A DNA stretch of 32,843 nt from an uncultured Burkholderiales bacterium (lineage in GTDB: Bacteria; Pseudomonadota; Gammaproteobacteria; Burkholderiales; Burkholderiaceae_D). Positions 8,697-26,533 of this stretch are shown here, one piece after another. The first letter of the stretch is position 1. Each line of letters begins with the position of its first letter. The notes beneath the pieces are model-generated. The model ran no database searches, was not told the DNA's origin, and was given only the letters and a program-made list of their open reading frames with translations. The stretch is from contig CAILRJ010000017.1 in the NCBI GenBank assembly GCA_903836575.1, forward strand, positions 1 through 32,843. Reading direction: 5' to 3'. The translations under genes and the position numbers were made by a program.

Positions 8697-8732
8697 GCGA
8701 CCTCAATCACAACAGAAATCAGGAGAGACACC

Positions 8733-9359
8733 ATGGCAAGAATGAAATTCATCTGCGATTCCGAGCGTTGCATCGAGTGCAACGGTTGCGTTACCGCCTG
8801 TAAAAATGAGCATGAAGTCCCGTGGGGCGTGAACCGCCGCCGCGTTATTACTGTCAACGACGGCATTATTGGCCAAGAAAAATCAATGTCGGTCGCCTGC
8901 ATGCATTGTTCCGATGCACCATGCATGGCAGTTTGTCCGGTTGACTGCTTTTACCGTACGGATGAAGGTGTGGTCCTGCATGACAAGGACATCTGTATCG
9001 GTTGCGGCTATTGCGCCTATGCATGCCCGTTCGGTGCACCTCAATTTCCGTCGAACGGCACGTTTGGTTTGCGCGGCAAAATGGACAAGTGCACATTCTG
9101 TGCTGGTGGTCCGGAAGAAGATGGCTCGAAAGAAGAGTTCGAGAAATACGGTCGCAACCGTTTGTCAGAAGGCAAACTGCCAGCCTGTGCCGAGATGTGT
9201 TCGACCAAGGCATTGCTTGGTGGTGACGGTGATGTGATTGCCGATATTTTCCGTACACGGGTAGTGCATCGGGGCAAGGGAAGCGAAGTGTGGGGTTGGG
9301 GCACGGCTTATGGCAAATCGCACGATCCACAAGCCAAAGCACCAGCGGGGAAATCATGA
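8733..9359 (+). CDS. Formate dehydrogenase beta subunit, 4Fe-4S ferredoxin
   Basis: CIECNGCVTACKNEHEVPWG, CMHCSDAPCMAVCPVDCF, CIGCGYCAYACPFGAPQFP; RBS GGAGAG upstream. Confidence 0.94.
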   Translation: MARMKFICDSERCIECNGCVTACKNEHEVPWGVNRRRVITVNDGIIGQEKSMSVACMHCSDAPCMAVCPVDCFYRTDEGVVLHDKDICIGCGYCAYACPFGAPQFPSNGTFGLRGKMDKCTFCAGGPEEDGSKEEFEKYGRNRLSEGKLPACAEMCSTKALLGGDGDVIADIFRTRVVHRGKGSEVWGWGTAYGKSHDPQAKAPAGKS

Positions 9360-9592
9360 TGCGCGCGCGGATAGCATTGATCATGTCGGCCGTTGCCATG
9401 CTGGCACTGGCTGGCTGTGGTGAAAAAAGTCAGGAAATGAGTAGTTCTGCCAGCAAGCCGGATGGCAAACCGTATGAGGGTGAACTCACCCGCTACGCGG
9501 CCAAAGGCTGGGAGAAGGGCGACAAGACGAAATGGCAACTGCAGTTGCGCGCCCGTGCTCAAAACCAGAACGAATACACCAGAACCAATTAA
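9356..9592 (+). CDS. Small predicted lipoprotein in the FDH operon
   Basis: MMRARIALIMSAVAMLALAGCGEKSQ lipobox (LAGC); ATG overlaps FDH beta stop (ATGA). Confidence 0.75.
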   Translation: MMRARIALIMSAVAMLALAGCGEKSQEMSSSASKPDGKPYEGELTRYAAKGWEKGDKTKWQLQLRARAQNQNEYTRTN

Positions 9593-9614
9593 TTTCGCAG
9601 CGACGGGAGCCATC

Positions 9615-10739
9615 ATGAAACAGGGGATTGCACGCTTGGTTGTCAGCTTACTGCTGACGACTGCTGTCATCGGGTCGGCGTTGGCGCAGCAAAATGCGTC
9701 AGCGCCGTCAAATACAGGGGGTATCGAGTCCATCGATATCCTCAATCAGAACCAGGCTGAACGCACCCGCGACCAGCCTGGTAATTCGGCACCGGTTTTC
9801 CGCACGATTAAAGAAGGAACGAAGAATTATTCGAGTCTTCCGGCGCTGGAATCCGGCGTGCTTATCCAGGGCAAGCAGCAATTTCCTGGCCAGGCACGCG
9901 CGACAACGGCTGGTGAAGCCTGGCGTCAGTATCGCAACGGACCGTTGACGCAAATCGGTGGTTGGCTGCTGCTGCTTGCGGCAATCGGTGTGGCCGGCGT
10001 GTACTTCGTTGCCGGTCCGGTCAAGCTCAAGGCTAAACCTACCGGAAGGCTCATCGAACGATTTACCTCGGTCGAAAGGATTGCCCACTGGAGCACGGCA
10101 ATCAGCTTCGTACTGCTTGCGTTGACCGGGTTAATCATTCTGTTCGGCAAACACATCCTGATGCCGGTATTCGGGCATACGCTTTATGGTTGGCTGTCGT
10201 TCGCCTGTAAAAATGCGCACAACTTTGCCGGGCCGGTGTTTACCGTATCGATCGTGGTGACCTTCATCATCTTCGTTAAAGACAATTTTCCTGCCAAGGA
10301 AGACTTGCAATGGCTTATCCGTTTGGGCGGCATGTTTGGTGGCAAACACGCTTCGTCAGGTCGCTTTAATGCAGGCGAGAAAATGTGGTTTTGGACAGGT
10401 GTGGTCGGCTTAGGTCTGATCATCAGCGCTTCCGGTTTTGTAATGAACAAAATCGTACCCGGCATGGATTATCCGCGTAGCGTCATGCAGATCGCCAACG
10501 TGATTCACCTGATCGCCGCGGTACTGGTGTCGACGATGGCAATGGGTCACATCTACATCGGTAGTATCGGTATGGATGGAGCATACAAGGCAATGCGAAC
10601 CGGTTATGTTGACGACGCATGGGCCAAGGAACATCACGATCTGTGGTACGCCGATATCGAAGCCGGCAAGGTGCCGCGCAGTCGTACCGAAGAAGCGGCG
10701 AAGCGCAGTCATGCGCCGCAGCCAAGCAGCGCAACCTGA
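9615..10739 (+). CDS. Formate dehydrogenase gamma subunit, membrane cytochrome b556
   Basis: Signal peptide; IERFTSVERIAHWSTAISFVLLALTGLIILFG and HLIAAVLVSTMAMGHIYIG typical of FDH gamma. Confidence 0.92.
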   Translation: MKQGIARLVVSLLLTTAVIGSALAQQNASAPSNTGGIESIDILNQNQAERTRDQPGNSAPVFRTIKEGTKNYSSLPALESGVLIQGKQQFPGQARATTAGEAWRQYRNGPLTQIGGWLLLLAAIGVAGVYFVAGPVKLKAKPTGRLIERFTSVERIAHWSTAISFVLLALTGLIILFGKHILMPVFGHTLYGWLSFACKNAHNFAGPVFTVSIVVTFIIFVKDNFPAKEDLQWLIRLGGMFGGKHASSGRFNAGEKMWFWTGVVGLGLIISASGFVMNKIVPGMDYPRSVMQIANVIHLIAAVLVSTMAMGHIYIGSIGMDGAYKAMRTGYVDDAWAKEHHDLWYADIEAGKVPRSRTEEAAKRSHAPQPSSAT

Positions 10740-10751
10740 TCAGGAATTAAC

Positions 10752-11033
10752 ATGAAAAAAATTATTGCACTCGCCGTCGGCGCCTTGTTTGCCAGTATTG
10801 CTATGGCCAAATTGCCGCCGCCGAGCGAAGACGCCGTCGCTAAGTCTGATGAAGCCAAGGCGAAAACCGAAGCCGGAAATAAAATTGCGGCCTATAAGTT
10901 GTGTCTGGCACAGGACAAAGCAGCAGCGTATTATTTCAAAGCCAAGACACCGGCGAACAAGGCCGTCGAGGGCTTGCCAGCTTGTGCGGACCCAGGTCCG
11001 TACGTCGTTGCCAAGGTAGTTGCCAAGAGTTGA
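10752..11033 (+). CDS. Small exported hypothetical protein
   Basis: MKKIIALAVGALFASIAMAKLPPP signal peptide; within FDH operon; AACATG start after AGGAATTA. Confidence 0.7.
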   Translation: MKKIIALAVGALFASIAMAKLPPPSEDAVAKSDEAKAKTEAGNKIAAYKLCLAQDKAAAYYFKAKTPANKAVEGLPACADPGPYVVAKVVAKS

Positions 11034-11085
11034 TGTGGCAATCACGACGTGCTGGATCATTGAACCCGTCAAAAAACAAGGAAAT

Positions 11086-11478
11086 ATGATGTTGAAAAGT
11101 CTCTCTTTTTTGCTTGCGTCACTATTATTGTCATCGATGGCCCATGCGGCCTCGGTCTCGTTCGTCGAGCCAGCGGATGGTGCCACTGTGCCGACCACCT
11201 TTCCGGTGAAATTTGCCGTAGAGGGCATGGACGTCAAACCGGCCGGTGAACTGTCTCCGACCAGTGGGCATCACCACTTGCTGATCAACGCCACGGCCAT
11301 ACCGGCCGGTGAGCCTGTGCCTTTCGACGAAACGCACATTCACTTCGGCAAAGGTCAGACTGAAGCAACGGTGACTCTCAAGCCGGGTACTTACAAGATG
11401 ACGTTGCAATTTGCCAATGGGGCGCACCAGTCTTACGGTGAACCGCTGAGCAAAACGATCACCGTCAACGTCAAGTAA
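11086..11478 (+). CDS. DUF4399-like exported protein
   Basis: MMLKSLSFLLASLLLSSMAHAA signal; VSFVEPADGATVPTTFPVKFAVEGM...GHHHLLINA..HFGKGQTEATVTLKPGTYKMTLQFANGAHQ pattern. Confidence 0.8.
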   Translation: MMLKSLSFLLASLLLSSMAHAASVSFVEPADGATVPTTFPVKFAVEGMDVKPAGELSPTSGHHHLLINATAIPAGEPVPFDETHIHFGKGQTEATVTLKPGTYKMTLQFANGAHQSYGEPLSKTITVNVK

Positions 11479-11484
11479 CCCGCT

Positions 11485-12333
11485 TTGACCCGCTACCGTC
11501 CCCAGCTGACCAATGCCCATGTCGATCTGACCCGTGAAGTCGAGGTCACGGATGAGCGCGGCCGTGTCTCGCTCATCTCGATCCCGGCCGAGCGGCCCTT
11601 GACCGTGTATGTCGACAAGCGTGAACTGGTCACGTTGATGACACTAGGCGGTGCACCCGAGGCGTTGACATTAGGCTACCTGCGCAATCAGCGCTTCATT
11701 CGAAATCTGGAAGATGTGGTGTCGGTGCAGGTGGATTGGGATGTTGAGGCTGTGGCAGTCATCACCCGCAACGGCATTGACGACATTGAAGCACGGACTG
11801 CCAAGCGGGTCGTGACGACCGGCTGTGGTCAAGGCTCGGTGTTTGGCGGGCTGATGGATGACGTTGCGGCAATTCGGCTTTCACCGGATGCGAAATTGAA
11901 GCAATCGGTATTGATCCGCATTGTTGACACGATTCGAACCCAGCAATCGATCTACAAGCAGGCTGGTTCGGTTCACGGCTGCGCCTTGTTTACATCAGAG
12001 GGCGAATTGTTATATTTCGTCGAAGATGTTGGCAGACACAATGCCGTCGACGCCATCGCCGGACGGATGTGGCTTGATGGCATGGCCGGCGACGATAAAA
12101 TTTTTTACACCACCGGACGCCTCACGTCCGAGATGGTCATCAAGGGAGGACAGATGGGGATTCCGTTCCTGCTGTCGCGCTCCGGCACCACCCAGATGGG
12201 ACACATGGTCGCCGAGCAATTGGGTATGGCGTTGCTAGCGCGCTGTAGCGGCAAGCATTTCCTGTTACTGACAGGTAAGGAGCGTCTTGTATTCGAGCCC
12301 GAGCTGTTCGATGGCGCACTGAAAGTGGCCTAA
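11485..12333 (+). CDS. fdhD: FdhD, formate dehydrogenase sulfurtransferase
   Basis: ERPLTVYVDKRELVTLMTLGGAPEALTLGYLRNQRFI..., TTGCGQGSVFG, VHGCALF...EDVGRHNAVDAIAG, TTGRLTSEMVIK, SRSGTTQMG. Confidence 0.93.
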   Translation: MTRYRPQLTNAHVDLTREVEVTDERGRVSLISIPAERPLTVYVDKRELVTLMTLGGAPEALTLGYLRNQRFIRNLEDVVSVQVDWDVEAVAVITRNGIDDIEARTAKRVVTTGCGQGSVFGGLMDDVAAIRLSPDAKLKQSVLIRIVDTIRTQQSIYKQAGSVHGCALFTSEGELLYFVEDVGRHNAVDAIAGRMWLDGMAGDDKIFYTTGRLTSEMVIKGGQMGIPFLLSRSGTTQMGHMVAEQLGMALLARCSGKHFLLLTGKERLVFEPELFDGALKVA

Positions 12334-12357
12334 GCGAATGGCATTGATGTTCGTGTT

Positions 12358-13047
12358 GTGCCGCTGATCGACGCAACACTGGCTGCGTTTGCATTGCTCT
12401 TTTCTGGCGATGCGGAACTGTGGCGCATTGTCTGGGTTTCTGTCTCGACCTCTGTCATCGGCCTGCTCATCGCCACGCCTTGTGCGGTACTCCTCGGATA
12501 TTTTGTAGCAACCCAATTGTTCCCTGGTCGCCGCGTCGTCATTTGGCTGGCGCAGGTGTCGCTGTCCATCCCGACGGTATTAATCGGCTTGTTGCTATAC
12601 CTGTTATTGTCGCGCAGCGGCCCGGCCGGCGATTTGCGCTGGCTATTTACGCAGTCGGGATTGATTGTCGGGCAAGTGCTGATCGCCATACCGGTACTGG
12701 TGGCCTTCACGCTCGCGGCGGTGCAAGCCGCCGATCCACGTTTGGCCGAAACCGCAACAACGCTGGGCGCATCCCGTTGGCGAGTAATGTGGACGGTACT
12801 GCGCGAAGTGCGTTTTGGCGTGATGGCCGCGATCATCAACGGATTTGGCAGAGTCATCTCGGAAGTCGGTTGCGCGATGATGGTCGGGGGCAATATTGCG
12901 GGTGAGACGCGTACCATCACGACCGCTATTGCGCTCGAAACCAGCAAGGGCGATTTCGCACAAGGCATTGCACTAGGAATGGTGCTGATTGCCATCGCTC
13001 TGGCCATTAACGCCGCATTGCTGCTGTTGCAAGGTGACACAAAATGA
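12358..13047 (+). CDS. tupB: Tungstate-type ABC transporter permease (TupB-like)
   Basis: Membrane permease with ATTLGASRWRVMWTVLREVRFGVMAAIINGFGRVISEVGCAMMVGGNI (EAA loop); GTG start; next to TupC/TupA-like ORFs. Confidence 0.85.
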   Translation: MPLIDATLAAFALLFSGDAELWRIVWVSVSTSVIGLLIATPCAVLLGYFVATQLFPGRRVVIWLAQVSLSIPTVLIGLLLYLLLSRSGPAGDLRWLFTQSGLIVGQVLIAIPVLVAFTLAAVQAADPRLAETATTLGASRWRVMWTVLREVRFGVMAAIINGFGRVISEVGCAMMVGGNIAGETRTITTAIALETSKGDFAQGIALGMVLIAIALAINAALLLLQGDTK

Positions 13048-13718
13048 ACATGCTGCTGACGATCGACGGGTTGCAACTGCGCTTTGGCGAGCGTTTGCTG
13101 CTCGACATTGAACACCTTGAGATTGCAACGGCCAGTGCCTACGTGCTTACTGGTGCCAACGGTTCCGGCAAGAGTACCTTGCTGCGTATCCTGTGCGGGC
13201 TGGAGTCTGCCCGCATCGACGGAGCACATTTCATGGACAAGCCGGTCAGTTTGAGGCCTTACCCGCCAATGCTGCGCGATGCGATTCTCTACGTGCATCA
13301 GCATCCTGTGATGTTTTCGACGACAGTAGAAGCCAACGTAGGATACGGACTGGTCGCGCGCGGGATCGCCAAGACTGCGCTGACAAAGCGCGTAGCCGAT
13401 GCGATGGAGTGGGCTGGCATCACGCACTTGCGCGGCACGCATCCGCGGCACTGGTCGGGCGGCGAAAAACAGCGGGTAGCCCTTGCCCGTGCGCGCGTGT
13501 TGCGTCCGCAATTGCTGTTGCTCGATGAACCCACTGCCAATCTCGATGGTCCCGCGCGCGAGCAAGTCATCGGCTTGATCCCGACCCTGCTGGCCGAAGG
13601 CCGCAGTGTCATCATGGCATGCCATGATCGTGACCTGATCGGCTTGCCTGGCGTGCGCCGCCTGAAACTGAAGGACGGCCGGCTTGAAATGCGTGAAGCC
13701 GCCCTCCGTAACGATTAA
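13044..13718 (+). CDS. tupC: Tungstate-type ABC transporter ATP-binding protein (TupC-like)
   Basis: GANGSGKSTLLRILCG Walker A, WSGGEKQRVALARARVLRPQLLLLDEPTANLD. Confidence 0.87.
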   Translation: MNMLLTIDGLQLRFGERLLLDIEHLEIATASAYVLTGANGSGKSTLLRILCGLESARIDGAHFMDKPVSLRPYPPMLRDAILYVHQHPVMFSTTVEANVGYGLVARGIAKTALTKRVADAMEWAGITHLRGTHPRHWSGGEKQRVALARARVLRPQLLLLDEPTANLDGPAREQVIGLIPTLLAEGRSVIMACHDRDLIGLPGVRRLKLKDGRLEMREAALRND

Positions 13719-13738
13719 TCACCCTGAAAGGCCTTATC

Positions 13739-14551
13739 ATGCCCCGTCGTCTCGTCCTCCAGTTCTCCCTCATTTTGCTCGCTGGCGCTATTGCTCCATT
13801 GGCCTCGGCACAGCAAGTCCTCAGGCTCTCGACCACGACCAGTACCGAAAATTCCGGCTTGCTCAAAGTCCTGCTGCCTGTTTTTGAAAAAAAATACGAC
13901 GTGAAAGTGCAAGTCATCTCGGTGGGTACCGGCAAGGCACTGGAACTGGCCAAGAATGGCGACGTCGACGTAACTCTGGTGCATGCCCGTCCGTCGGAAG
14001 ACAAGTTTGTTGCCGCCGGCTATGGCGTCAATCGGCAAGACGTAATGTATAACGACTTCATTCTGGTCGGCCCGGCCAGTGATCCGGCGGGTATTGCCGG
14101 TAGCAAGGATATTGTCGACAGCTTGAAAAAAGTATTCGCCAGCAAAGCCAAATTTATCTCACGCGGGGATAACTCGGGGACCGAGCAGATGGAGCAGTCT
14201 TACTGGAAAACCGCTGGCGTCAAACCGCAGGGCAGCGCTTATGTATCGGCTGGACGTGGCATGGGTGAAGTGCTGACGATGGCAGGCGAACTGCAAGCCT
14301 ACACACTGACCGATCGCGCAACTTTTAGCGCCTACCGTGCCAAGACCGGACTGACCATTGCGGTAGAAGGCGACAAGACGATGTTCAATCCCTACGGCAT
14401 CATTGCTGTCAATCCGGCGCGTTTCCCTGACATCAATCAAAAGGGTGCCAATCAGCTGATCGACTGGATCACATCCCCGGCTGGCCAGGCAGAAATTGCT
14501 GCATTCCGTGTCGATGGCGAACAAGTATTTTTCCCTTCGGCAAAGCGCTAG
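13739..14551 (+). CDS. tupA: Tungstate-binding periplasmic protein (TupA-like)
   Basis: Signal peptide; LRLSTTTSTENSGLLKVLLPVFEKKYDVKVQVISVGTGKALELAKNGDVDVTLVHARPSED typical of TupA (TTTS motif). Confidence 0.88.
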   Translation: MPRRLVLQFSLILLAGAIAPLASAQQVLRLSTTTSTENSGLLKVLLPVFEKKYDVKVQVISVGTGKALELAKNGDVDVTLVHARPSEDKFVAAGYGVNRQDVMYNDFILVGPASDPAGIAGSKDIVDSLKKVFASKAKFISRGDNSGTEQMEQSYWKTAGVKPQGSAYVSAGRGMGEVLTMAGELQAYTLTDRATFSAYRAKTGLTIAVEGDKTMFNPYGIIAVNPARFPDINQKGANQLIDWITSPAGQAEIAAFRVDGEQVFFPSAKR

Positions 14552-14562
14552 TCTGTACTGAA

Positions 14563-15348
14563 TTACCAGGGCACTTCGGTGCCATCCCACGCAACAAAAC
14601 GCCCGCTATTGCCGGGCGTTGCCGTTGCGATCACCGCCAGCAGCTGGGCTGCCGCGCGCGCTGGATCAAATAACTTTCCCTCTGCCACACCTCGCTGGAA
14701 CGGTCGCGACAGCGCGCTGTCGACCGTACCCGGATGCAGCAACTGGATGCTCAAGTGCGGATGGGTGCGACGACACTCAATCGCCGCCGTCTTCAGCAAC
14801 TGATTCTGTGCCGCTTTCGCCGCACGGTAGGCATACCAGCCACCGAGTTTGTTATCCCCGATTGAGCCAACCCGCGCTGATAACGACGCAAAGACTGCCG
14901 ATGTGTTGTGCCGCATCAAGGGCAGCATCGCCTGTGCCAGCAGAATAGGTCCGAAAGCATTAACTGCAAACACTTGCTGAAGATTGTCACCGGTCACAGC
15001 GGACAGGGATTTTTCCGGGGATAGTGCTGCCCCATGTAACAAGCCCGTGGCATTGATCACCAGATGCAGTGTCTGGATCGGCAGGCTGGCAGCCAAAGAC
15101 TGAAGACTGGTGCTGTCGGAAATGTCTGCACTGGCAATAGTAAGCCGGGTAGGGTGCTCTGCTTTTAATTCGGCAAGTTCCACCGAGTCTGGAGCATGGC
15201 GTGCTGCGGCAGTCACATGTCCAACAAATGGATGCGCAAGCAATTGTGCCGTAAGCGCCAGTCCGATCCCGCCCGTGGCGCCGATGACGAGCACCTGTGC
15301 CGGTTCGTCGAGGGTGGCAAGTAATTGGTTGGTGGCAGGGGAGGTCAT
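14563..15348 (-). CDS. Short-chain dehydrogenase/reductase
   Basis: VLVIGATGGIGLALTAQLLAHP (TGxxxGxG), NATG, SLSARVGSIGDN...GGWYAYRAAKAAQN (YxxxK). Start MTSPATNQLL at 15348 preferred over the longer ORF. Confidence 0.88.
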   Translation of the reverse strand: MTSPATNQLLATLDEPAQVLVIGATGGIGLALTAQLLAHPFVGHVTAAARHAPDSVELAELKAEHPTRLTIASADISDSTSLQSLAASLPIQTLHLVINATGLLHGAALSPEKSLSAVTGDNLQQVFAVNAFGPILLAQAMLPLMRHNTSAVFASLSARVGSIGDNKLGGWYAYRAAKAAQNQLLKTAAIECRRTHPHLSIQLLHPGTVDSALSRPFQRGVAEGKLFDPARAAAQLLAVIATATPGNSGRFVAWDGTEVPW

Positions 15349-15438
15349 GACGAGTCCGGAGTGAGGTAAGCAGGAGAAAACGTTGTCGATGCTAGCACGT
15401 GAACCAAATACTGTTTTTTCAACCATCGACTGTTTGCC

Positions 15439-17532
15439 ATGATGAATACTCCCGATACTGAAATGACGCGGCCGTCGCATTCGGCATTCGCCGAACGCAG
15501 CCGGATCAGGGCCTTGCTGGAGATCGAGGCCGCGTTGGCCGGTGCGCTGGCACAGCACGGAGTCATCAGCACGGCGTCTGCCACACAGATCGCTGACTGC
15601 TGCAGACACGAGTTGATTTCTTCAGACCTGCCTCAGGAGGTCGTCCGGCAATTGACGGTTGCGGTGGCCGAGCGCGATACCGAGGCGGCCAATTACGTGC
15701 ACTGGGGTATGTCCTTGCAGGATCTCGCGGATACCGCGCTCGTGCTGCAATTGCGCGTGGCGCTTGACGATATCGAGGTGAACCTTGCCCGGTTTGTTGC
15801 CGTGCTGGCCGAGTCTGCCGATCGTCACCGGCATACTGCACAAGTCGGGCGGGTCGGCTTGCAGCATGGCTTGCCGATCACATTTGGTCTTAAAACCGCC
15901 GGGTGGCTCGACGCCTTGCTGCGCCATCAGCAGCGTCTGCAGACCTTGCGCTCGCGCTTGCTGATGCTGCAGTTTGGTGGAACCACGGGTACGCTGGCCA
16001 GCCTCGGTGATGCGGCACTGCCGGTAGCCAGCGCGCTGGCAGCGACGCTGGAGCTGAGCCTGCCTGACATGCCGTGGCACGGTCAGCGCGATCGTTTTGC
16101 CGAGGTGGCCACGACGCTGGGCTTGCTGGCTGGCTCCCTTGGCAAGATCGCCCATGACATGATCCTGCTCACCCAGACCGAAGTGGCGGAACTGGCTTTT
16201 CCAATGACTCCCGCGATCGGCTGGTCGTCCACGCTGGCTGCTACGCAGCAGGTGCCGGCGCTGGTCGCCGCCATGCTGACCGTAATGCTGCCTGATCATG
16301 AGGGCCAGATCGACCAGGATGGCGATGCTGCCGCGCGCATTCTGCCGCAGATTGTGGTGCTCTGTGCCGCTGCCATTGAGCAATTGCAGTTGCAGGCCAG
16401 TAGCATGAAGGTCGACGCTGCGCGCATGCAGGCCAATCTTGCGCTGACACGCGGGCGCATTCTGGCTGAGCCACTGACACTGGCACTTGCTCGCAAAATC
16501 GGTCGTCAATCTGCCGAGGCGCTGGTTGCACAGGCCAGCGAGCAGGCGGCACAAAGCGATCAGGATTTGCGTGATGTGCTCGATCAATACGGCGTGGTCA
16601 GCCTGCATTTCAGTGCACTCGAACTGGACCGCTTGCTTGAGCCGGCCAGCTACAGCGGCCAGTCGGCGAGTTTCGTTGATCGCGTCTTGCAGAGCTGGCA
16701 GCACTTTTCGGGCATTCCGGCCGTTACCGATCAAGCTCCCATACTATTTGCTACCGGCAAGATACCGCTGCATTACCGCATAGACGGACTCGATGGCGCA
16801 CCGTGGTTGATCTTGTTGAACGCACTGGGGACCGCGCTGACTATTTGGGAACCGCAGATGCCAATTTTTCAAGAGCATTTCCGCGTACTGCGTTATGACA
16901 CGCGTGGTCATGGCCAGTCAGTAATGTGTAATGGCGCGGCGTCGCTGGCCGAATTGGGGGAAGACGTGATTGGCTTGATGGATCACCTCGGTATCGCACG
17001 CGCCCATGTTTGCGGCAGTTCACTTGGTGGCATGACCGGTCTCTGGATGGCGATTCATCACCCTGCTCGCCTCGAGCGATTGGTGGTGTGCAACGCGGCG
17101 CCGTTGCTGGGCCCACCCTCGGTCTGGGACGGCTGGATCGAGCAGGTCCGCCAGCATGGAGTCAAGGCAGTCGTCCCGGCCTTGATCGAACGCTGGTTCA
17201 CGCGCGACTTCGAACGTCATGCGGCACATCAGGTCGGTGTCGTTCGGGAAATGCTGCTGCAGACCTCGCCTGCCGGTTTTATTGCCGCGTGCAGCGCGAT
17301 ACGCGACATGGACTTGCGCGATGGCTTGTCCCGTATCAGCGTGCCGACCCTCGTCATTGGCGGCAAGCGCGACCGGCTGACACCACCAACACAGACGCGC
17401 CGAATGGCCACGCAGATTAATGGTGCCAGCTACGTCGAACTCAACGCAGGGCATTTGCCCAATCGGGAAGTGGCGCAGCGCTTCAACGCCGAGGTGACAG
17501 ATTTTTTACTGGCCGGATCATCGCTCCCGTAG
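15439..17532 (+). CDS. Fused 3-carboxy-cis,cis-muconate cycloisomerase-like / 3-oxoadipate enol-lactonase-like protein
   Basis: Single 697-aa ORF. N-half: RALLEIEAALAGALAQHGVIS, WGMSLQDLADTALVLQLR, GRVGLQHGLPITFGLKTAGW (PcaB-like lyase). C-half: IPLHYRIDG, YDTRGHGQS, CGSSLGGMTGLWMAIHHPARLERLVVCNAAP, GGKRDRLTPP, NAGHLPNRE (PcaD alpha/beta hydrolase). Confidence 0.85.
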   Translation: MMNTPDTEMTRPSHSAFAERSRIRALLEIEAALAGALAQHGVISTASATQIADCCRHELISSDLPQEVVRQLTVAVAERDTEAANYVHWGMSLQDLADTALVLQLRVALDDIEVNLARFVAVLAESADRHRHTAQVGRVGLQHGLPITFGLKTAGWLDALLRHQQRLQTLRSRLLMLQFGGTTGTLASLGDAALPVASALAATLELSLPDMPWHGQRDRFAEVATTLGLLAGSLGKIAHDMILLTQTEVAELAFPMTPAIGWSSTLAATQQVPALVAAMLTVMLPDHEGQIDQDGDAAARILPQIVVLCAAAIEQLQLQASSMKVDAARMQANLALTRGRILAEPLTLALARKIGRQSAEALVAQASEQAAQSDQDLRDVLDQYGVVSLHFSALELDRLLEPASYSGQSASFVDRVLQSWQHFSGIPAVTDQAPILFATGKIPLHYRIDGLDGAPWLILLNALGTALTIWEPQMPIFQEHFRVLRYDTRGHGQSVMCNGAASLAELGEDVIGLMDHLGIARAHVCGSSLGGMTGLWMAIHHPARLERLVVCNAAPLLGPPSVWDGWIEQVRQHGVKAVVPALIERWFTRDFERHAAHQVGVVREMLLQTSPAGFIAACSAIRDMDLRDGLSRISVPTLVIGGKRDRLTPPTQTRRMATQINGASYVELNAGHLPNREVAQRFNAEVTDFLLAGSSLP

Positions 17533-18010
17533 TTGCGGATTCTGCATGCGCCGTTGGTTGCAGGGTAACGGGAAGATCTTCGCTGCGCAGAAACCGTCGT
17601 CGGATGCCGATGTGGCCCGCCCGATGGTGCTTGTTGAAGTAATTGATACGCCGTGTCAACAAGCGCAGCAGGGTCAGCAAGGTGTCGGGCGTGTGGGCCG
17701 TCAGGGAAATTTTCTCGATCATGACGACGCTATCCTGATTTGGCGAAACACTAAACGTGCATTCGCGACTGCTGAGCATCATCATGTTTTCTTGCAATAG
17801 CAGGGGATACAGGGCGGCCTGTTCTTCGAGGTTGAACTGACCGAAATCGGCATACAGGAACAGTGCCCCGGAATCGGTAACGGGTTTGACCATCAACGTA
17901 AAGCCGACGCCATCAATCGTGATGGCACCACCATCGATGATTCGTTGGGGGACGTTGTCTCCAGTCAGGAGACACAGTCCCTCGATCAGCTGTTCGAATT
18001 CGGAATACAT
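17483..18010 (-). CDS. CesT/Tir-chaperone-family-like (type III secretion chaperone-like) protein
   Basis: FEQLIEGLCLLTGDNVPQRIIDGGAITIDGVGFTLMVKPV...LFLYADFGQFNLEEQAALYPLLLQENMMML...FSVSPNQDSVVMIEKISL pattern; RBS GAGGA upstream. Confidence 0.7.
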   Translation of the reverse strand: MYSEFEQLIEGLCLLTGDNVPQRIIDGGAITIDGVGFTLMVKPVTDSGALFLYADFGQFNLEEQAALYPLLLQENMMMLSSRECTFSVSPNQDSVVMIEKISLTAHTPDTLLTLLRLLTRRINYFNKHHRAGHIGIRRRFLRSEDLPVTLQPTAHAESATTGAMIRPVKNLSPRR

Positions 18011-18172
18011 GGTGTCCTCGGGGGCCGGGTTGCAGAGCAGAGTTTGTTGTCAATACGGCAGTAGGTGTGTGCTGGGAACGTGTGGTTCCATCCCCTGACT
18101 GATAACCAAGGTGCAGGAACCGGCACACCTTTCCGGTTACCTATCCCGGCATCATGGCGCCAAGGAGATCTG

Positions 18173-18589
18173 ATGGAACACCGTTTTGAAACCCTAGTCC
18201 GGGCTTTTTGCGAGCTCGAAAATTACAAGCAGCCGGAGCGTCTGCTGGAAGGAGAGTCGATCGAACTGCATGGCGTCGAGTTCTCGCTCCTGTACGACGA
18301 GGATATTGCTGTCGACGCAATGTATTTACGAATCGTGTTCGGTAATGCGCCGCTAAAAAACGAAACCGCGATTTATCGGGCGCTGCTCAAGGAAAATTAT
18401 GCAGGCTATTGCGGCAAGGGCCCGGGATTTTGCGTCTCGCCAGCATCCGGGCGGGTGTTGTTCCTGCTGAAGATGCCGTTGTGCGATGCCTCGCCCGCAA
18501 TGCTGCTCAATACAATATTGAGTTCCATAGGCAAAGTGAAGCAATGGCGGAGTACGTATTTTCTGACGTCGATGGCGCACCGTGATTAG
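18173..18589 (+). CDS. CesT/Tir-chaperone-family-like protein, divergent paralogue of the 17483-18010 gene
   Basis: FETLVRAFCELENYKQPERLLEGESIELHGVEFSLLYDE...YLRIVFGNAPLKNETAIYRALLKENYAG...FCVSPASGRVLFLLKMPL aligns along its length with the neighbour; RBS AAGGAG. Confidence 0.65.
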   Translation: MEHRFETLVRAFCELENYKQPERLLEGESIELHGVEFSLLYDEDIAVDAMYLRIVFGNAPLKNETAIYRALLKENYAGYCGKGPGFCVSPASGRVLFLLKMPLCDASPAMLLNTILSSIGKVKQWRSTYFLTSMAHRD

Positions 18590-18629
18590 CGTTTTCCCGT
18601 TTTGTTCGGATCTTGAGGGCCAAAGAAGG

Positions 18630-19775
18630 TCACTGAATCCCGTCCGGATCCTGAGCCTGCAATAACTTACGTGATCGAAACGGAGACACCAGTTGTTCCA
18701 GATACGATTGCGGTGCTTGAAAATGATCGATCCCATAGCGGCGAGGCCAGCCCGGCGGAAGATGCACGGTACCGAACAAGCGATCCCATAACGGAAGGAA
18801 CTGGGCAAAGTTCTTGTCGAGTCCTTCGGCGTCCGACGCATGGTGCCAATGGTGATACTGAGGAGTCGATATCACCCAGCGCAAACCGGGAAAGCGCCAG
18901 CGGACGTTGGCATGAATAAAAACCGCATGGAATGAAACAAACACCAGATAGCTGTACAGAGCGGCGGGTGCAAAGCCGAGTACGAAGACGGGGATGAAGG
19001 CGACCGCACGGGTGAGCAAGGCATCGACGGGATGGATGCGCGAGCCTGCCAGCCAGTCCATCTCTGTGCTGCAGTGGTGGATTGCGTGGAAGCGCCAGAG
19101 CCATGGGATGTGGTGAAACGCCCGGTGGATCCAGTACGTGGCAAGATCAACGAGCGCGATCATTTCCATGAATTGCAGCCAGAGCGGCTGGGCAGCAATA
19201 ACTCGTTGAAAGTCGGGCTGCACGGCCCACGAAAACAGCACTTGCGCAGGAATCAGCGCGGCAAACGAGAGCAACTGGACACCGGCATGGCTGACAAAAA
19301 AATGCTTCAGGTCGATCTGCCATCCATGACGCAAGACCTTTTGCCTGTGCAGCCAGAACAGCGCTTCGACCGGTATGAAGATCACTCCCAGCACCAGCAG
19401 TTCAAGGACGAAGTAGTCCAGGCCGGCTGACCAGAATCGCATGGCTCCGACATCGAGCGCCTGCGCCTGCGGGCCACCCATCGCCATTGCCACGACGCCA
19501 AAAGTGATGCCGAGCAGGCCAAGGCGACGTGTGCGCATGCGCGTGACGATGATGCCGATCGCCCCGAGCACGAATGTTGCAAAAATACTGACCTGAAGGA
19601 TGGCTCTGCACAGATCGATGTGCGCCTTGTACAGAGGCAGCGCATCGCGTGTCACCAGCAGTTCCGGCAACAGAAAGCACAGTTCGGCGACGATACACAG
19701 CGCACCCAGAAGCGCCGAGGACAGCGCAGCGCGCTTGCCGATCGCGATGAGCAGAGGGGCGATTAGCGGCGCCAT
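18630..19775 (-). CDS. Sterol desaturase / fatty acid hydroxylase superfamily membrane di-iron protein
   Basis: DLATYWIHRAFHHIPWLWRFHAIHHCSTEMDWLAGSRIHPVD ... ISTPQYHHWHHASDAEGLDKNFAQFLPLWDRLFGT His-box pattern. Start at 19775 overlaps the upstream gene by 13 bp. Confidence 0.88.
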   Translation of the reverse strand: MAPLIAPLLIAIGKRAALSSALLGALCIVAELCFLLPELLVTRDALPLYKAHIDLCRAILQVSIFATFVLGAIGIIVTRMRTRRLGLLGITFGVVAMAMGGPQAQALDVGAMRFWSAGLDYFVLELLVLGVIFIPVEALFWLHRQKVLRHGWQIDLKHFFVSHAGVQLLSFAALIPAQVLFSWAVQPDFQRVIAAQPLWLQFMEMIALVDLATYWIHRAFHHIPWLWRFHAIHHCSTEMDWLAGSRIHPVDALLTRAVAFIPVFVLGFAPAALYSYLVFVSFHAVFIHANVRWRFPGLRWVISTPQYHHWHHASDAEGLDKNFAQFLPLWDRLFGTVHLPPGWPRRYGIDHFQAPQSYLEQLVSPFRSRKLLQAQDPDGIQ

Positions 19776-20389
19776 CGTCGAAGCAGGGCGTTGCACAGCG
19801 GGTTGAACCAGCCGTTCGCCATGCAGAAGTGTGAGTCGAACGGCGCCGTGTGATGCTGATGATGATGCCAGCCCGGCAAAATAAGATGGTGGCGCTGCGC
19901 CCAGCGAATGCTCGCGGGTACCGATACGTCCTCCATGTGCGCCCATTTGTGGCACTGGTTGGTTGCCAGCGCCCCGAGCGCAATCGACAGCAGGGTTGCC
20001 TGCAGCAGCATGGTGATTCCGCTCAGCGGCAACAGACTCGACGCGATGACGAATGGCAGCGCCGCAAAACAGCTTGCTCCGTGCGTCTCGACAAAGTCGT
20101 GTCGGGTCATCGCCTGAGGGTCGCCATGATGTTCACGAAACGGACGAATGAGCAACGTGCCGAGGATTGGCGTGTTGACACTGCCGAAAGAATCGCAGGC
20201 CCAATGCACGAGGCCGCTCAACAAGTCGGTGAGCAGCCACGCGACCGGTACGGCAATCGACAGGATCGGCACGAGTAGCCAGCCTGCCGCAACCGCGAGG
20301 CGCAATCCGCTCCAGCAGACAAGCAGCACGAACAGTGCGATCACAATCTGTTCGACGATCCGTTGCGGCGACGTTGTGGACGGGGTCAT
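19763..20389 (-). CDS. TMEM189/Kua/CarF-type (plasmanylethanolamine desaturase family) membrane protein
   Basis: LLTDLLSGLVHWACDSFGSVNTPILGTLLIRPFREHHGDPQAMTRHDFVETHG ... TNQCHKWAH ... RHHLILPGWHHHQHHTAPFDSHFCMANGWFNP: His-rich motifs of the TMEM189/CarF family. Start 20389 overlaps upstream stop (ATGA). Confidence 0.85.
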   Translation of the reverse strand: MTPSTTSPQRIVEQIVIALFVLLVCWSGLRLAVAAGWLLVPILSIAVPVAWLLTDLLSGLVHWACDSFGSVNTPILGTLLIRPFREHHGDPQAMTRHDFVETHGASCFAALPFVIASSLLPLSGITMLLQATLLSIALGALATNQCHKWAHMEDVSVPASIRWAQRHHLILPGWHHHQHHTAPFDSHFCMANGWFNPLCNALLRRWRR

Positions 20390-21417
20390 GGTGCGCTGGC
20401 AATCCTGCGCAGGTGCGCTTGAATCGCGCACACCGCCGCGCGCCACGACACCCCGTTATAGGCGATTCCCTGCTTCTCAAAATGATGCCTGACGATGCTT
20501 TGTACGGCGGCAAGCCGGTGCGACGGCACTTTTGGAAACAGGTGATGCTCGATCTGGAAATTCAATCCTCCGAACAGCCAGTCCCACCGTGGCGCATTAA
20601 CGATGGTGCGCGAAGTGACTGTTTGATGCTCGAGGAATGAGAAATCAGAGACCTTTTTAATCAGTGGCATACCCATGTGATTGACCCAGAAGATCGCCGC
20701 CAGATACGGCCCGAGCAGGGTCAGCGGGATCAGATAGGTCAGCAGCGCCAGCGGTAACGAGACACCGAGCATCCCGCACGGAATGCCGAACCAGAGCCCG
20801 CCATGAAGCAGCAGTATCATGCTGTCAAGCCGGTAGCGGCGCGGATTACGCAACACGGCGGCTTGGGAAAGGCAGCGCTGGCTGTGACCGAACAGCAGTG
20901 ATAACAGCCAGATATGCGTGGTCTGGTAGCGGGTCAGGAATCTGCCGAATGGCGTTTTTCTGCGCCGCGATGCGTCGGTGAGCGAGACAACGAACTCGAC
21001 CATCAGGTCAGGATCCTGATCCTCGTCCTGACAGAACCGATGATGGGCCCGATGCCGCGTGATCCACTCGTCAAACGCCAGGCCCGTCAGCAGTGTCATG
21101 CTCAATTGGCCCAGCACCCGATTGAGGCGATCGTGCCGGCTGACAGCGCCGTGTCCGGCGTTGTGACCGATGAAAGCACATTGCGCGAGCAACAGCGCGA
21201 TAGCGGTGTAGACGCCAGCGAGCAACCAGAACGAGGGCGCCACCAGCCAGGCAGTGGCGAGTGCCGCACCGAGCATTGCGCACAGTGCGGCGAGCCTGAT
21301 GATGGTCGGTATAGCTGCGCTTGCGCAAAGCTGTTGCGCGTTGACGTCCTCGGACAGGGAGCACCACACTGCGTGTCCTTCCTGTTGACTTAATTTTGGC
21401 TGGATGGTGGTTTGCAT
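20386..21417 (-). CDS. Membrane fatty acid desaturase, front-end (QxxHH) type
   Basis: H-boxes HNAGHGAVSRHDR, HRAHHRFCQDEDQDPD, GGLNFQIEHHLFP. Start 21417 preferred (AAAGAG RBS) over the 21498 ORF start. Confidence 0.87.
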   Translation of the reverse strand: MQTTIQPKLSQQEGHAVWCSLSEDVNAQQLCASAAIPTIIRLAALCAMLGAALATAWLVAPSFWLLAGVYTAIALLLAQCAFIGHNAGHGAVSRHDRLNRVLGQLSMTLLTGLAFDEWITRHRAHHRFCQDEDQDPDLMVEFVVSLTDASRRRKTPFGRFLTRYQTTHIWLLSLLFGHSQRCLSQAAVLRNPRRYRLDSMILLLHGGLWFGIPCGMLGVSLPLALLTYLIPLTLLGPYLAAIFWVNHMGMPLIKKVSDFSFLEHQTVTSRTIVNAPRWDWLFGGLNFQIEHHLFPKVPSHRLAAVQSIVRHHFEKQGIAYNGVSWRAAVCAIQAHLRRIASAP

Positions 21418-21454
21418 GGCGCGCTCTTTATCTGCTGGGTCAATAAAGTTGCCA

Positions 21455-22369
21455 TCAGGTGCCGGCATGGTCACTTGCTCCACTGAACAGCAAGGCACCG
21501 TGCAATACCGTGACGTTGCCCGGTGCAGGCAACGTCACTTCACCATCGCCTTCGAAAACGAGGCAGTCGGGTCCGGTATCAATATCGATGGACTGCGCAC
21601 GCGCGTGATGCACGAACGGTGCGTTCAGATGAAGGCCCAGATAAATAGCTGGCAACCATGCCAGCAGTTTTGCTCTGGATGCCGCTTCGACCACGACGAT
21701 ATCGGCCTGGCCATCGGTGGCGTCTGCTCTCGGCGCAATGCACATTCCTTTCCCGAAATGCGTGCTGTTGGCAACCACCACCATCGAGAAAAAACCTTCG
21801 CGCCAGAGTTGCCCATCGAGACAAATACGTGCCCACTTAGGCTTGTAGTCAATGAGTTCGCGCAGTGCCGCGACGAGAAACGAGCCTGTGTTTCGGTGCG
21901 TCAACGCGTTGACACGTTCCGCAACCATTGCCGTCATACCGATGGATGTCTCATTGATGAAATACCGTGACTGCGCGCCGCAACGCAGGCGCAATACATC
22001 GAGATGGCCGGCCCGTGCCTCGAGGGCTTGTGTCAATGCATGCAGCGGTTGCGTCTCAATGCCTAACCCGCGTGCGAGGTCCGAGCCGGTACCGACCGGG
22101 ATCAGTCCCAGGCAGCGCGTCGCATCGGGTGCGTCGGCCAGCATTACATTTAATGTCGTGTGGAGCGTGCCATCGCCACCGAGCACCACGATCCGGCGAA
22201 TCGCCGGCGTCAGTGCGTCAATGATGGCCTGGCGCGCGATGCTGGCATCGTCACAATACACAACGTTGGCAGTGCGCAGGCATGGGAGGCGCGCACGCAA
22301 CGATGACCAGACGCGACTGGCACGACCGGAGGCCGCTGCGGGATTGACGACGAACAAAACATTTTCCAT
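21455..22369 (-). CDS. Diacylglycerol/lipid kinase family protein (YegS-like)
   Basis: VLFVVNPAAASGRA, VLGGDGTLHTTLNVM, GLIPVGTGSDLARGLGI, FEGDGE motifs of the DAGK catalytic family. Confidence 0.88.
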   Translation of the reverse strand: MENVLFVVNPAAASGRASRVWSSLRARLPCLRTANVVYCDDASIARQAIIDALTPAIRRIVVLGGDGTLHTTLNVMLADAPDATRCLGLIPVGTGSDLARGLGIETQPLHALTQALEARAGHLDVLRLRCGAQSRYFINETSIGMTAMVAERVNALTHRNTGSFLVAALRELIDYKPKWARICLDGQLWREGFFSMVVVANSTHFGKGMCIAPRADATDGQADIVVVEAASRAKLLAWLPAIYLGLHLNAPFVHHARAQSIDIDTGPDCLVFEGDGEVTLPAPGNVTVLHGALLFSGASDHAGT

Positions 22370-22557
22370 TGTCGTGACGCGTTATCAGATCGGGTAGTCG
22401 GGGTTGCTTAGCGCGAAGGATTTTCTCAGCCAAGTCTACTTGGAAAAAGTAGCCGCTTGTCGTCAAGCTGCTGATTGCGGCACTTTAAACAACGCTATGG
22501 AGGAGTGCGCAATGGTTGGGCTAGGGATGGATAACAACGTCGCGGGTCAGCGTCCAT

Positions 22558-22575
22558 GGCGGGCGCTGGCCCGCC
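22558..22575. repeat. Perfect inverted repeat (7-bp stem, 4-nt loop)
   Basis: GGCGGGC-GCTG-GCCCGCC in the intergenic region downstream of the pepO-like gene; no T tract. Confidence 0.5.
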
Positions 22576-22648
22576 TTGGCCGTCGCGGGAATGCGACAGA
22601 CAAGGCCCGCCCGGCCAGGTCATGGCGAGGCGGATTCACCGCATCACG

Positions 22649-24718
22649 TCACCAGATAATGACGCGCTGTGCTGCAGGCAAATACATCTTGTCGCCTTCC
22701 TTGACATCAAACGCGCTGTAAAAAGCCGGCTGGTTCGACAGGGTGCCATTGGTGCGGTATTGCGCCGGCGAGTGCGGATCAGTCTTAATCTGCACGATGG
22801 TTTGCGCATCACGCGACTTGGCGCGCCAGACTTGTGACCATCCCATGTACAAACGCTGGTCGCCGGTCAGGCCCGCGATAACCGGTGCTTCCTTGCCGCC
22901 TAGCGATAGCTTGTAGGCCTTGTACGCAATGGCCAGACCGGAGTTGTCGGCGATGTTTTCACCGAGCGTCAATGCGCCGTTGACGTGGTAACCGGGTAAT
23001 GGCGAGAACGCATCGTACTGCGCGATCAGCATCTTGGTCTTGGCTGAAAATCGTTCGTGATCCTGTTTGGTCCACCAGTCACGCAGGTTACCGTCGCCAT
23101 CGTATTGGGCACCTTGATCATCAAAGCCATGGCTGATTTCATGACCGATGACGGCACCGATACCGCCGTAGTTGACGGCGTCGTCGGCCTTCGCATCAAA
23201 GAACGGTGGTTGCAGGATCGCCGCCGGGAACACGATTTCATTGAGCTCCGGGTTGTAGTACGCATTGATGGTCTGTGGCGTCATGCCCCATTTGTCGCGA
23301 TCAATCGGCTTGCCCAGTTTGTCCAGCTCGAACTGATTCGCAAAAGTGCTTGCGCGCATGACGTTGCCGACCAGATCATCCTTGCTGATCTGCATGCCGG
23401 AATAGTCTTTCCACTTGTTCGGATAGCCGATCTTCGGCGTAAATTTGGCCAGCTTGATCTGTGCTTCTTTCTTGGTTTCAGGACTCATCCAGTCGATCGT
23501 TTCGATGCTCTGGCGATACGCTGCCAGCAGGTTTTGCACCAGCTTTTCCATGCGCACTTTGCGCTCCGGCGGGAAGTGTTCTGCAACATAGACCTTGCCG
23601 ACGGCTTCGCCGAGCGAGGCTTCGACCAGCATCACGCCGCGCTTCCAGCGGGGCTCGTTCTCCGGGATACCGCGCAGCGCTGTGCCCTTATAAGCAAAAT
23701 TGGTGTCGACGTACGGCTTCGACAGCATGCCGGCGTAGCGGCTGATCAACTGGGTTTCGAAATACTTCTTCCAGACCGGCAACGTGGTCTTCTGATAGAC
23801 CGTATTGAAGCCTTTCAGATAGCTCGGCTGGCTGACAATAACGTAATTGACCTTGCCATCAATACCCGCGGCCGTCAGGTACGACTTCCAGTCATATTTC
23901 GGCGCAAGGGCATTGAGTCCGGCAAAATCGAGCTTGTTATAAGTCTTGATCGGATCGCGGTTTTCGACTTTGGTCCACTGGACTTTGGCCAGCGCGGTTT
24001 CCAGTGCCAGCACATCGCGCGCACTGGCGGCAGCGGCCTTGTCACCGGACATCGTCAACAATGTCTGCACGAACTCCTGATACTTCGCGCGGGCGGCTAC
24101 GAGCTTGGCGTCGTTCGGTTTCAGGTAGTAATCCCGATCCGGTAGACCGAGCCCGCTTTGCGCCAGATCAACCACGTACTTGGTCGAATCGCGTGCATCC
24201 TGATGAATGCCAAAGCCATACGGCGTGTTCACACCGAGTTCGCTCAGGTGCGCGATCAGGGCAGGGATTTCTTTCTTGTCTTTTAGCGCCGCGATCTTTG
24301 CGAGTTCTGCTTGCAGTGGTTTCAGACCCAGTTCTTCGAGCTTTGCTTCATCCATGTAGCTGGTGTACAGATCACCGATCTTGCGTGTTTCCGCCGTGCC
24401 ACCGGACTCCTTGGCGGCGTTTTCGATGATGGCGCGCAATTGCGGCAGCGTGTCATCGCGCAATTTGGCGAACGAACCCCAGCTCGATTTGTCGGCGGGG
24501 ATGTCGGTCGTGGCCAGCCATTTGCCGCTGGTGTATTTGAAAAAATCGTCCTGGGCGCGCACGTCCTTGTCGATATATTGCAGCTCGATACCGGAGGCCG
24601 GTTGTGCTGCAGTTGTTGCCGCTGTCGTTGTTACTGTCGCAGGAGCATCGGCAGCGATAGCCGTCGAGGCAGAGGCGGCCATGCCGAGATAAAGCGCGTT
24701 CACCAGATAACGATTCAT
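22649..24718 (-). CDS. M13-family zinc metallopeptidase (neprilysin/PepO-like)
   Basis: VIGHEISHGFDDQGAQYDGDGN (HExxH), LGENIADNSGLAIAYKAY (ExxxD), NAYYNPELNEIVFPAAILQPPFF; signal peptide at MNRYLVNALYLGMAASASTAIAAD. Confidence 0.94.
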   Translation of the reverse strand: MNRYLVNALYLGMAASASTAIAADAPATVTTTAATTAAQPASGIELQYIDKDVRAQDDFFKYTSGKWLATTDIPADKSSWGSFAKLRDDTLPQLRAIIENAAKESGGTAETRKIGDLYTSYMDEAKLEELGLKPLQAELAKIAALKDKKEIPALIAHLSELGVNTPYGFGIHQDARDSTKYVVDLAQSGLGLPDRDYYLKPNDAKLVAARAKYQEFVQTLLTMSGDKAAAASARDVLALETALAKVQWTKVENRDPIKTYNKLDFAGLNALAPKYDWKSYLTAAGIDGKVNYVIVSQPSYLKGFNTVYQKTTLPVWKKYFETQLISRYAGMLSKPYVDTNFAYKGTALRGIPENEPRWKRGVMLVEASLGEAVGKVYVAEHFPPERKVRMEKLVQNLLAAYRQSIETIDWMSPETKKEAQIKLAKFTPKIGYPNKWKDYSGMQISKDDLVGNVMRASTFANQFELDKLGKPIDRDKWGMTPQTINAYYNPELNEIVFPAAILQPPFFDAKADDAVNYGGIGAVIGHEISHGFDDQGAQYDGDGNLRDWWTKQDHERFSAKTKMLIAQYDAFSPLPGYHVNGALTLGENIADNSGLAIAYKAYKLSLGGKEAPVIAGLTGDQRLYMGWSQVWRAKSRDAQTIVQIKTDPHSPAQYRTNGTLSNQPAFYSAFDVKEGDKMYLPAAQRVIIW

Positions 24719-24913
24719 GGAGGGTTTCCTTTTGGGTTCCTTTGCCAGTGGTCGGCAAAGCAAGGGGAAGAATTTACCATAGCCGACAATTGCAAGAGCC
24801 GGTCGGCGGGAACCGGGTACCGGCAGGTCGGTTTATGGTTCAGAATAGGGCGCTTGCCGGGCCGGCTGATCGTTGGCTTGGCCCATGACCCCGACACCAC
24901 TGGAGAAAACTGC

Positions 24914-26533
24914 ATGAAGCAACAACGCACATTGATCCTCAAGGCCAGCCTGATTGCGCTGCTGTGCGCATCGGCAGGATTTGCCGTCACCGCAAGTGCT
25001 GCCAAGTCCCTCGTATTTTGCTCGGAAGGTAGTCCGGAAGGCTTTAATCCGCAATTCTTCAGTACCGGTACCACGATGGACGCGTCATCGGTGCCGATGT
25101 TTAACCGGTTGGTCGAATTTGATATCGGTACCACCAACATTGTCCCCGGCCTGGCCGAATCGTGGACCATCGCGCCGGACGGCCTGAGCTATACCTTCAA
25201 GTTGCGCAAGGGCGTCAAGTTCCACAGTAGCGCCAAGTTCACGCCGACGCGTGATTTGAATGCGGATGACATCGTGTTTACTTACAACCGCATGGCCGAC
25301 CCCCGGCATCCGTTCCACAAGAACACGCCGGGGACGACCTACGCCTATTTCGAAGACATGGGCATGAACAAGATCGTCGACAAGATCGAGAAGGTCGACG
25401 CGATGACGGTGCGTTTCAAGTTGCTGCATCCGGAAGCGCCATTCCTGGCCGATCTGGCGATGGACTTCAATTCGATACAGTCGGCAGAATATGCCGACAA
25501 GATGAAAGCTGCCGGCACACCGGAAGTGATTGATCGTGAGCCGATCGGCACTGGCCCGTTCCAGTTCGTGTCGTACCGCAAGGACGCCGTGATCCGCTAC
25601 AAGGCATTCGATGCCTATTGGGGCGGCCGGCCAAAAATCGACAACCTGATCTATGCAATCACGCCAGATGCTTCGGTGCGCTATGCCAAGCTGAAAGCCG
25701 GCGAGTGCCAGGTGATGGCGTTTCCCAAGCCGGCCGATATCGCGCTGATGAAGGCCGACCCGGACCTGACCTTGTATTCCAAGGAAGGTCTGAACATTGG
25801 CTACATTGCGTTCAATGTCGAGAAAAAGCCGTTCGATAACAAGCTGGTGCGGCAAGCATTGACGATGGCGGTCGACAAGGAATCGATTCTGAAAACCGTG
25901 TTCCAGGGTTCAGGGCAAAACGCCAAGAATCCGATCCCGCCGATGCTCTGGTCCTACAACGACAAGATCGTCGATTATCCGTACGACCCTGCCAAGGCCA
26001 AGGCCCTGCTGGCCAAGGCCGGTTATCCGAATGGTGCCGCAGTCGACCTGTGGTATCTGCCGGTCAGTCGTCCGTACAATCCCGACGGCAAGCGCATGGC
26101 GGTGTTGATCCAGGCTGACTGGGCCAAGGTCGGTGTCAAGGCCAATCTGGTGACCTATGAGTGGGGCGAATACCGCAAGCGCAGCAAGTCGGGCGAACAA
26201 CAGGCGATGATGTTCGGCTGGTCTGGCGACAATGGCGACCCGGATAATTTCTTTGGTCCGCTACTCGGTTGTGATGCAGTCGCCGGCGGCGGTAACGTGG
26301 CGCGCTGGTGCAACAAGGATTTCGAAGCCCAGCTGCAAAAAGCCAAGACCACGTCTGTGCAAGCCGAGCGTGCCAAATTTTATGAGCGCGCTCAGGAAAT
26401 CGTCCATGAAGAAGCGCCGCTCATCGAAATCGCCCATTCGGTGCGTTTCACGCCGGTACGCAAGGAAGTGATCGGTTTCAAGATGGATGCGACCGCGCAT
26501 CATTATTTCAACAAGGTTGATCTGGCGAAATAA
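24914..26533 (+). CDS. Dipeptide/peptide-type ABC transporter substrate-binding protein (family 5)
   Basis: Signal MKQQRTLILKASLIALLCASAGFAVTASAAKSLVFCSEGSPEGFNPQFF; DDIVFTYNRMADPRHPFH; GTGPFQFVSYRKDAVIRYKAFDAYWGG; start 24914, upstream ORF extension is antisense to pepO. Confidence 0.92.
   Translation: MKQQRTLILKASLIALLCASAGFAVTASAAKSLVFCSEGSPEGFNPQFFSTGTTMDASSVPMFNRLVEFDIGTTNIVPGLAESWTIAPDGLSYTFKLRKGVKFHSSAKFTPTRDLNADDIVFTYNRMADPRHPFHKNTPGTTYAYFEDMGMNKIVDKIEKVDAMTVRFKLLHPEAPFLADLAMDFNSIQSAEYADKMKAAGTPEVIDREPIGTGPFQFVSYRKDAVIRYKAFDAYWGGRPKIDNLIYAITPDASVRYAKLKAGECQVMAFPKPADIALMKADPDLTLYSKEGLNIGYIAFNVEKKPFDNKLVRQALTMAVDKESILKTVFQGSGQNAKNPIPPMLWSYNDKIVDYPYDPAKAKALLAKAGYPNGAAVDLWYLPVSRPYNPDGKRMAVLIQADWAKVGVKANLVTYEWGEYRKRSKSGEQQAMMFGWSGDNGDPDNFFGPLLGCDAVAGGGNVARWCNKDFEAQLQKAKTTSVQAERAKFYERAQEIVHEEAPLIEIAHSVRFTPVRKEVIGFKMDATAHHYFNKVDLAK

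Follow-up and report, generated by a model that had tools for sequence, protein, structure and literature searches.

The window, a stretch of 32,843 nucleotides, carries a gene for a protein that very likely belongs to the CarF-type family of lipid desaturases. On balance, and with modest confidence, we read this protein as a functional, membrane-bound di-iron desaturase within the CarF/TMEM189 (PEDS1) clade, one that would form a vinyl ether from a 1-O-alkyl glycerolipid. The gene lies within a block of four genes, listed here with the compared loci and genomes given by our L and G labels:

18601..22634, no strand assigned: self-contained cassette of four genes, missing as a whole from the sister genome G001 (synteny)
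21455..22369, minus strand: lipid kinase of the YegS/DAGK type, 304 aa, which opens the block (PF00781, PF19279; conserved in L010 and L011)
20386..21417, minus strand: membrane acyl desaturase (FA_desaturase; PF00487, E = 6e-38; conserved in L010, L011, L012 and L013), about 343 aa when counted from the ATG used in the orthologue, the ORF itself opening at a GTG at 21498
19763..20389, minus strand: CarF/TMEM189-type lipid desaturase (PEDS1-like), 208 aa (PF10520, nine histidines plus D100 and F118, tree, AF2 model)
18630..19775, minus strand: FA_hydroxylase (sterol-desaturase superfamily) partner, 381 aa (PF04116, E = 3.6e-31)

The CarF-type protein and its relatives

The earlier note had placed an open reading frame at 19763-20389 and assigned it to the TMEM189/CarF family. 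Its coordinates are exact for the ATG start: in the ORF list the frame runs on the minus strand from the ATG at 20389 down to the stop at 19763, and an alternative GTG-start frame spans 20446-19763. All of the sequence motifs quoted in the note were found in the protein, and the family call was borne out by the Lipid_desat profile PF10520 (E = 4.3e-44, 151 bits versus a cut-off of 26.4), by the signature residues and by the tree described below. When the whole 4.0 Mb assembly was scanned (474 contigs, 96% complete, MAG quality), this was its only PF10520 gene. The nearest relatives of the protein are in Oxalobacteraceae genomes, with orthologues at 86% identity in L010 (MAG Jr-11dec17-22) and 74% in L011 (IMCC9480), the latter not labelled as a MAG and apparently an isolate. 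Equal identities and match positions suggest that L010 and L011 correspond to G002 and G003, two genomes of the same genus as the window. Measured against both orthologues, dN/dS was about 0.16-0.19 for the CarF-type gene and 0.13-0.21 across all four cassette genes; the gene and the rest of the block are under purifying selection. These orthologues and the dN/dS of the CarF-type gene indicate that the ORF is real, far above chance.

A phmmer search of the PDB returned no solved relative of the protein. Its AlphaFold (AF2) model is all-helical, with a mean pLDDT of 94.1; the closest solved structure, a weak match, is that of the di-iron hydroxylase Scs7p, and the best viral match is a giant-virus lipid desaturase. 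No relatives were detected in the viral contigs that we scanned, and the plasmid scan gave a single, distant match from Rhizobium.

Previous reports revealed that eight histidines are essential in all family members, and that a ninth (CarF H113, mouse H131), present in animals, myxobacteria and Leptospira, is needed for full activity (PMC9131029, PMC8960569). The ninth histidine is missing in plants and Alphaproteobacteria (PMC9131029), whose homologues did not complement a carF mutant (PMC9131029, PMC8960569), and D100 and F118 in mouse numbering are likewise required (PMC8960569). We found that the window protein keeps the essential eight (H62, H87, H88, H147, H151, H176, H179 and H180) and has the ninth as H97, so that every histidine known for CarF/TMEM189 is conserved; D66 corresponds to mouse D100 and F84 to mouse F118. 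Animal TMEM189/PEDS1, compared here through the papers and by published numbering, has the same essential residues (PMC8960569). FAD4 and the alphaproteobacterial Lipid_desat homologues share PF10520 and the eight histidines with the window protein but lack the ninth and do not complement carF (PMC9131029). Both H131 and F118 were missing from six of six alpha/FAD4-type homologues examined from other Pseudomonadota (L004-L009), which have R, K, Y, G, V or L at the H131 position; this contrast rests on such bacterial homologues and, for FAD4 itself, on the papers. Among the 80 loci retrieved by our genome scan the presence of F118 is partly selected, since the search patterns contain part of the F118-H122 block, and H131 lies outside the patterns. 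The seed alignment of one genome-contig scan contained a human PEDS1 stretch, which was used as seed only.

In a tree of 86 rows, the window protein forms a betaproteobacterial clade with L010, L011, L013, L014, L015 and L031 (support 100/98). This clade sits inside the CarF-type group, together with Myxococcus xanthus CarF (L039) and the Leptospiraceae. Five alpha-type rows fall outside the group (99/99), and a sixth, L006, strays into it on a very long branch, so its position is not to be taken literally. The phylogenetic part of the earlier proposal thus held for M. xanthus CarF and for separation from the alpha type, within a tree that contains no animal or plant sequences and hence neither TMEM189 nor FAD4. 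The window protein is 44.5% identical to M. xanthus CarF over 191 aa, as against 26-34% local identity to the alpha type. Such alpha-type genes belong to the same Pfam family and do occur in other Burkholderiales (L004, L005, L123-L126), and the likeness to CarF could in principle be superficial. The identities, the retention of H131 and F118 and the tree placement make it highly improbable that the window protein is an alphaproteobacterial/FAD4-type desaturase; they uphold the note's view that it is closer to TMEM189/CarF than to FAD4.

The protein is nonetheless diverged. Against the CarF equivalog model NF045946 it scored 164 bits, below the cut-off of 500, a naming threshold for close CarF equivalogs. 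Whereas M. xanthus CarF has 52 residues after N196 in the compared stretch, including the PRxDD motif, six of the seven betaproteobacterial members have 9-19 (13 in the window protein) and lack the FF..ER...PRxDD C-terminal tail found in most myxobacterial members. The Leptospiraceae members are also without PRxDD, indicating that the tail is neither universal in the CarF clade nor defining for it. On account of the score and the missing tail, we classed the window protein within the CarF clade as a divergent member, distinct from CarF itself.

The four-gene cassette and the hydroxylase partner

From upstream to downstream on the minus strand, the block reads lipid kinase, acyl desaturase, CarF-type gene and FA_hydroxylase. 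The CarF-type gene shares sequence with both of its neighbours: its start with the stop of the acyl desaturase (ATGA), and its last 13 bases with the start of the hydroxylase. Overlap among the last three genes suggests a putative single transcript; promoter and terminator scans gave chance-level results. The sister genome G001, which is of the same genus and a single contig, has no PF10520 gene. Window positions 6330-17519, 17622-18600 and 22635-25092 have matches in its DNA, and exactly the four-gene block is missing. Conversely, L011 matches the window only at 18671-22379 and has different neighbours there. Together, the gap in G001 and the restricted match of L011 indicate that the four genes are gained and lost together.

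Further away the block is kept in part. The Rubrivivax MAG L013 retains three of the four genes, L014 and L015 retain two, the CarF-type gene and the hydroxylase, whose order is reversed in L014, and L031 has the CarF-type gene without the hydroxylase. In G526 (L128) and in L103 the CarF-type gene is a short remnant between a glutamine synthetase gene and an intact hydroxylase, and in L012 a deletion of about 1 kb runs through the CarF-type and hydroxylase genes and joins them; G526 and L012 are draft contigs, so assembly error could account for their losses. These remnants and deletions, with the absence of the block from G001, speak for a reading in which the gene is a horizontally acquired accessory that is decaying and now does little. 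However, the window copy is intact, keeps every catalytic residue and shows constraint in its dN/dS, and we regard decay as improbable.

The hydroxylase adjoins the CarF-type gene in three further betaproteobacterial contigs (L013, L014 and L015), at about 65% identity to the window's copy. Across the CarF-linked set, identities to the window hydroxylase are 62-90%, compared with about 42% for homologues elsewhere in Burkholderiales. With the ether-cleaving enzyme AGMO (TMEM195) it has in common the FA_hydroxylase domain, nine histidines and the equivalents of D233, N235, W243 and D244, the AGMO residues (PMC3617469, PMC7911779) having been mapped onto it by spacing. The AGMO-required E137, Q162 and Y236, however, are replaced by H, I and F in the window hydroxylase and by H/Q/K, I/M and F across the set, and on these residues we rejected the partner as an AGMO-type ether-cleaving enzyme. 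A model match to OlsE (E = 3e-30) reached 105 bits versus the OlsE cut-off of 475. The structure model of the partner was of low confidence (75.6), and its fold-search matches are meaningless.

Several observations concern related genes and the surroundings. The widespread Burkholderiales FA_hydroxylases that are not linked to PEDS (L108-L121) mostly have AGMO-like E137, Q162 and Y236 without W243, in contrast with a review calling E137 peculiar to AGMO. In another betaproteobacterial lineage (L015, L031 and L103), the CarF-type gene or the hydroxylase follows a glutamine-synthetase-family gene and not the kinase and desaturase. The cassette of the window is bordered by two divergent genes of the CesT type (type III secretion chaperone family), at 17483-18010 on the minus strand and 18065-18589 on the plus strand, whose mutual similarity suggests a duplication. 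At 15439-17532 there is a 697-aa ORF which, read by eye, appears to combine a lyase/cycloisomerase-like half with an alpha/beta-hydrolase half.

Substrate supply and the possible reaction

Animals carry the full FAR1-GNPAT-AGPS pathway, and M. xanthus, unlike the window genome, has AGPS and FAR-type genes, the former located at L098 and followed by the latter. When M. xanthus AGPS was used as the query against 31 genomes, most of the PEDS-bearing genomes from myxobacteria, Leptospiraceae, silvanigrellids, Nannocystis and planctomycetes gave AGPS-like matches, either full-length or in two pieces. Among the PEDS-bearing genomes, L042 (a Leptospiraceae MAG), L083, L088, L065 and L078 gave none or paralogue-level matches only. 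Alkyl-DHAP synthase was not found in the window genome or in seven other betaproteobacterial genomes with a CarF-type gene. The best matches in these eight, which include L012 with its broken CarF-type copy, were partial (E of about 1e-22 to 1e-27) and at the same level as in PEDS-less G001. The best match in the window genome, an FAD-oxidase_C protein, was rejected as AGPS, being a D-lactate dehydrogenase by its PDB match; the other FAD-oxidase_C proteins, judged by eye, were rejected as D-2-hydroxyglutarate dehydrogenase-like, a glycolate oxidase and a large FAD protein.

NAD_binding_4, a domain of both FAR and ElbD, was not found in the window genome or in IMCC9480, and is present in some of the other betaproteobacterial PEDS genomes (E = 2e-51 in Rubrivivax). 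Searches for DUF2229 (PF09989), which marks PlsA of the anaerobic PlsA/PlsR pathway, gave no matches in 12 genomes including the window genome, and the control genomes were positive. As the window genome is a 96% complete MAG, genes may have been missed and these absences are not proof, yet chance is an unlikely cause of the same absence of AGPS in eight genomes. We found nothing on point in the literature on betaproteobacterial plasmalogens. The suggestion in the earlier note that the organism could make plasmalogens aerobically is therefore only half supported: the CarF-type enzyme is there, and no alkyl-DHAP synthase, FAR/ElbD-type domain or PlsA-type DUF2229 was found to go with it.

Formation of vinyl ethers in vivo by the CarF-type protein seems to us somewhat probable. 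Like CarF, the enzyme would consume O2 and reducing equivalents and desaturate a 1-O-alkyl glycerolipid beside its ether oxygen, with the removal of two hydrogens. The alkyl lipid would be taken up from outside or made by a route not yet recognised. Dietary alkylglycerol is known to join the pathway via alkylglycerol kinase (PMC9131029), and the lipid kinase of the cassette could conceivably act as such a kinase in salvage, a conjecture consistent with the gene content. The hydroxylase partner might, again conjecturally, modify the same lipid.

A credible reading that we hold to be less likely is that the CarF chemistry has been kept and applied to a lipid that has no alkyl ether, such as a phospholipid acyl chain or another amphiphile, in sequence with the FA_hydroxylase and the acyl desaturase. 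Such a substrate would fit the lack of recognised alkyl-ether-forming genes in the window genome, the lost C-terminal tail, and the conserved pairing with a hydroxylase whose relatives do not adjoin CarF in myxobacterial loci (none was found at L039); moreover, the acyl-chain enzyme FAD4 belongs to the same superfamily (PMC8960569). Against it, the residues separating the ether-lipid enzymes from the others are all kept, H131 and F118 included, and in the tree the clade falls with CarF, apart from the alpha type. A sphingolipid reading of the lipid kinase, desaturase and hydroxylase was also considered. Returning to vinyl-ether formation, a broader proposal is that in Betaproteobacteria a CarF-type desaturase has become independent of the alkyl-DHAP pathway. 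It would work with a dedicated hydroxylase, the acyl desaturase and the lipid kinase in a cassette that can be transferred, and would yield a vinyl ether or a related unsaturated lipid through a route not described so far; we offer this tentatively and think it rather unlikely as a whole.

Distribution beyond the myxobacteria

A 2022 review reported true CarF homologues beyond the myxobacteria only in Leptospira (PMC9131029). Our analysis adds a CarF-type clade in Betaproteobacteria and members in contigs labelled Planctomycetota, Bdellovibrionota and others. The surroundings are also new: in betaproteobacteria the gene is in most cases linked to a hydroxylase, and the usual alkyl-ether synthase does not accompany it. 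Should vinyl ethers be made, these bacteria would either obtain ether lipids by salvage or form the ether bond in a step not yet known; otherwise, the signature residues accepted so far are no guide to substrate. IMCC9480, a related and apparently cultured isolate, makes the question of substrate directly testable.

CarF-type genes with all of the signature residues and no AGPS match also occur in L065 and L078, contigs labelled Woesearchaeota and Patescibacteria that could be binning errors. In L049, titled Comamonas sp. KCTC 72670, CarF is nested among Myxococcus sequences and AGPS is 90% identical to that of M. xanthus, indicating that this is probably a mislabelled myxobacterial genome.
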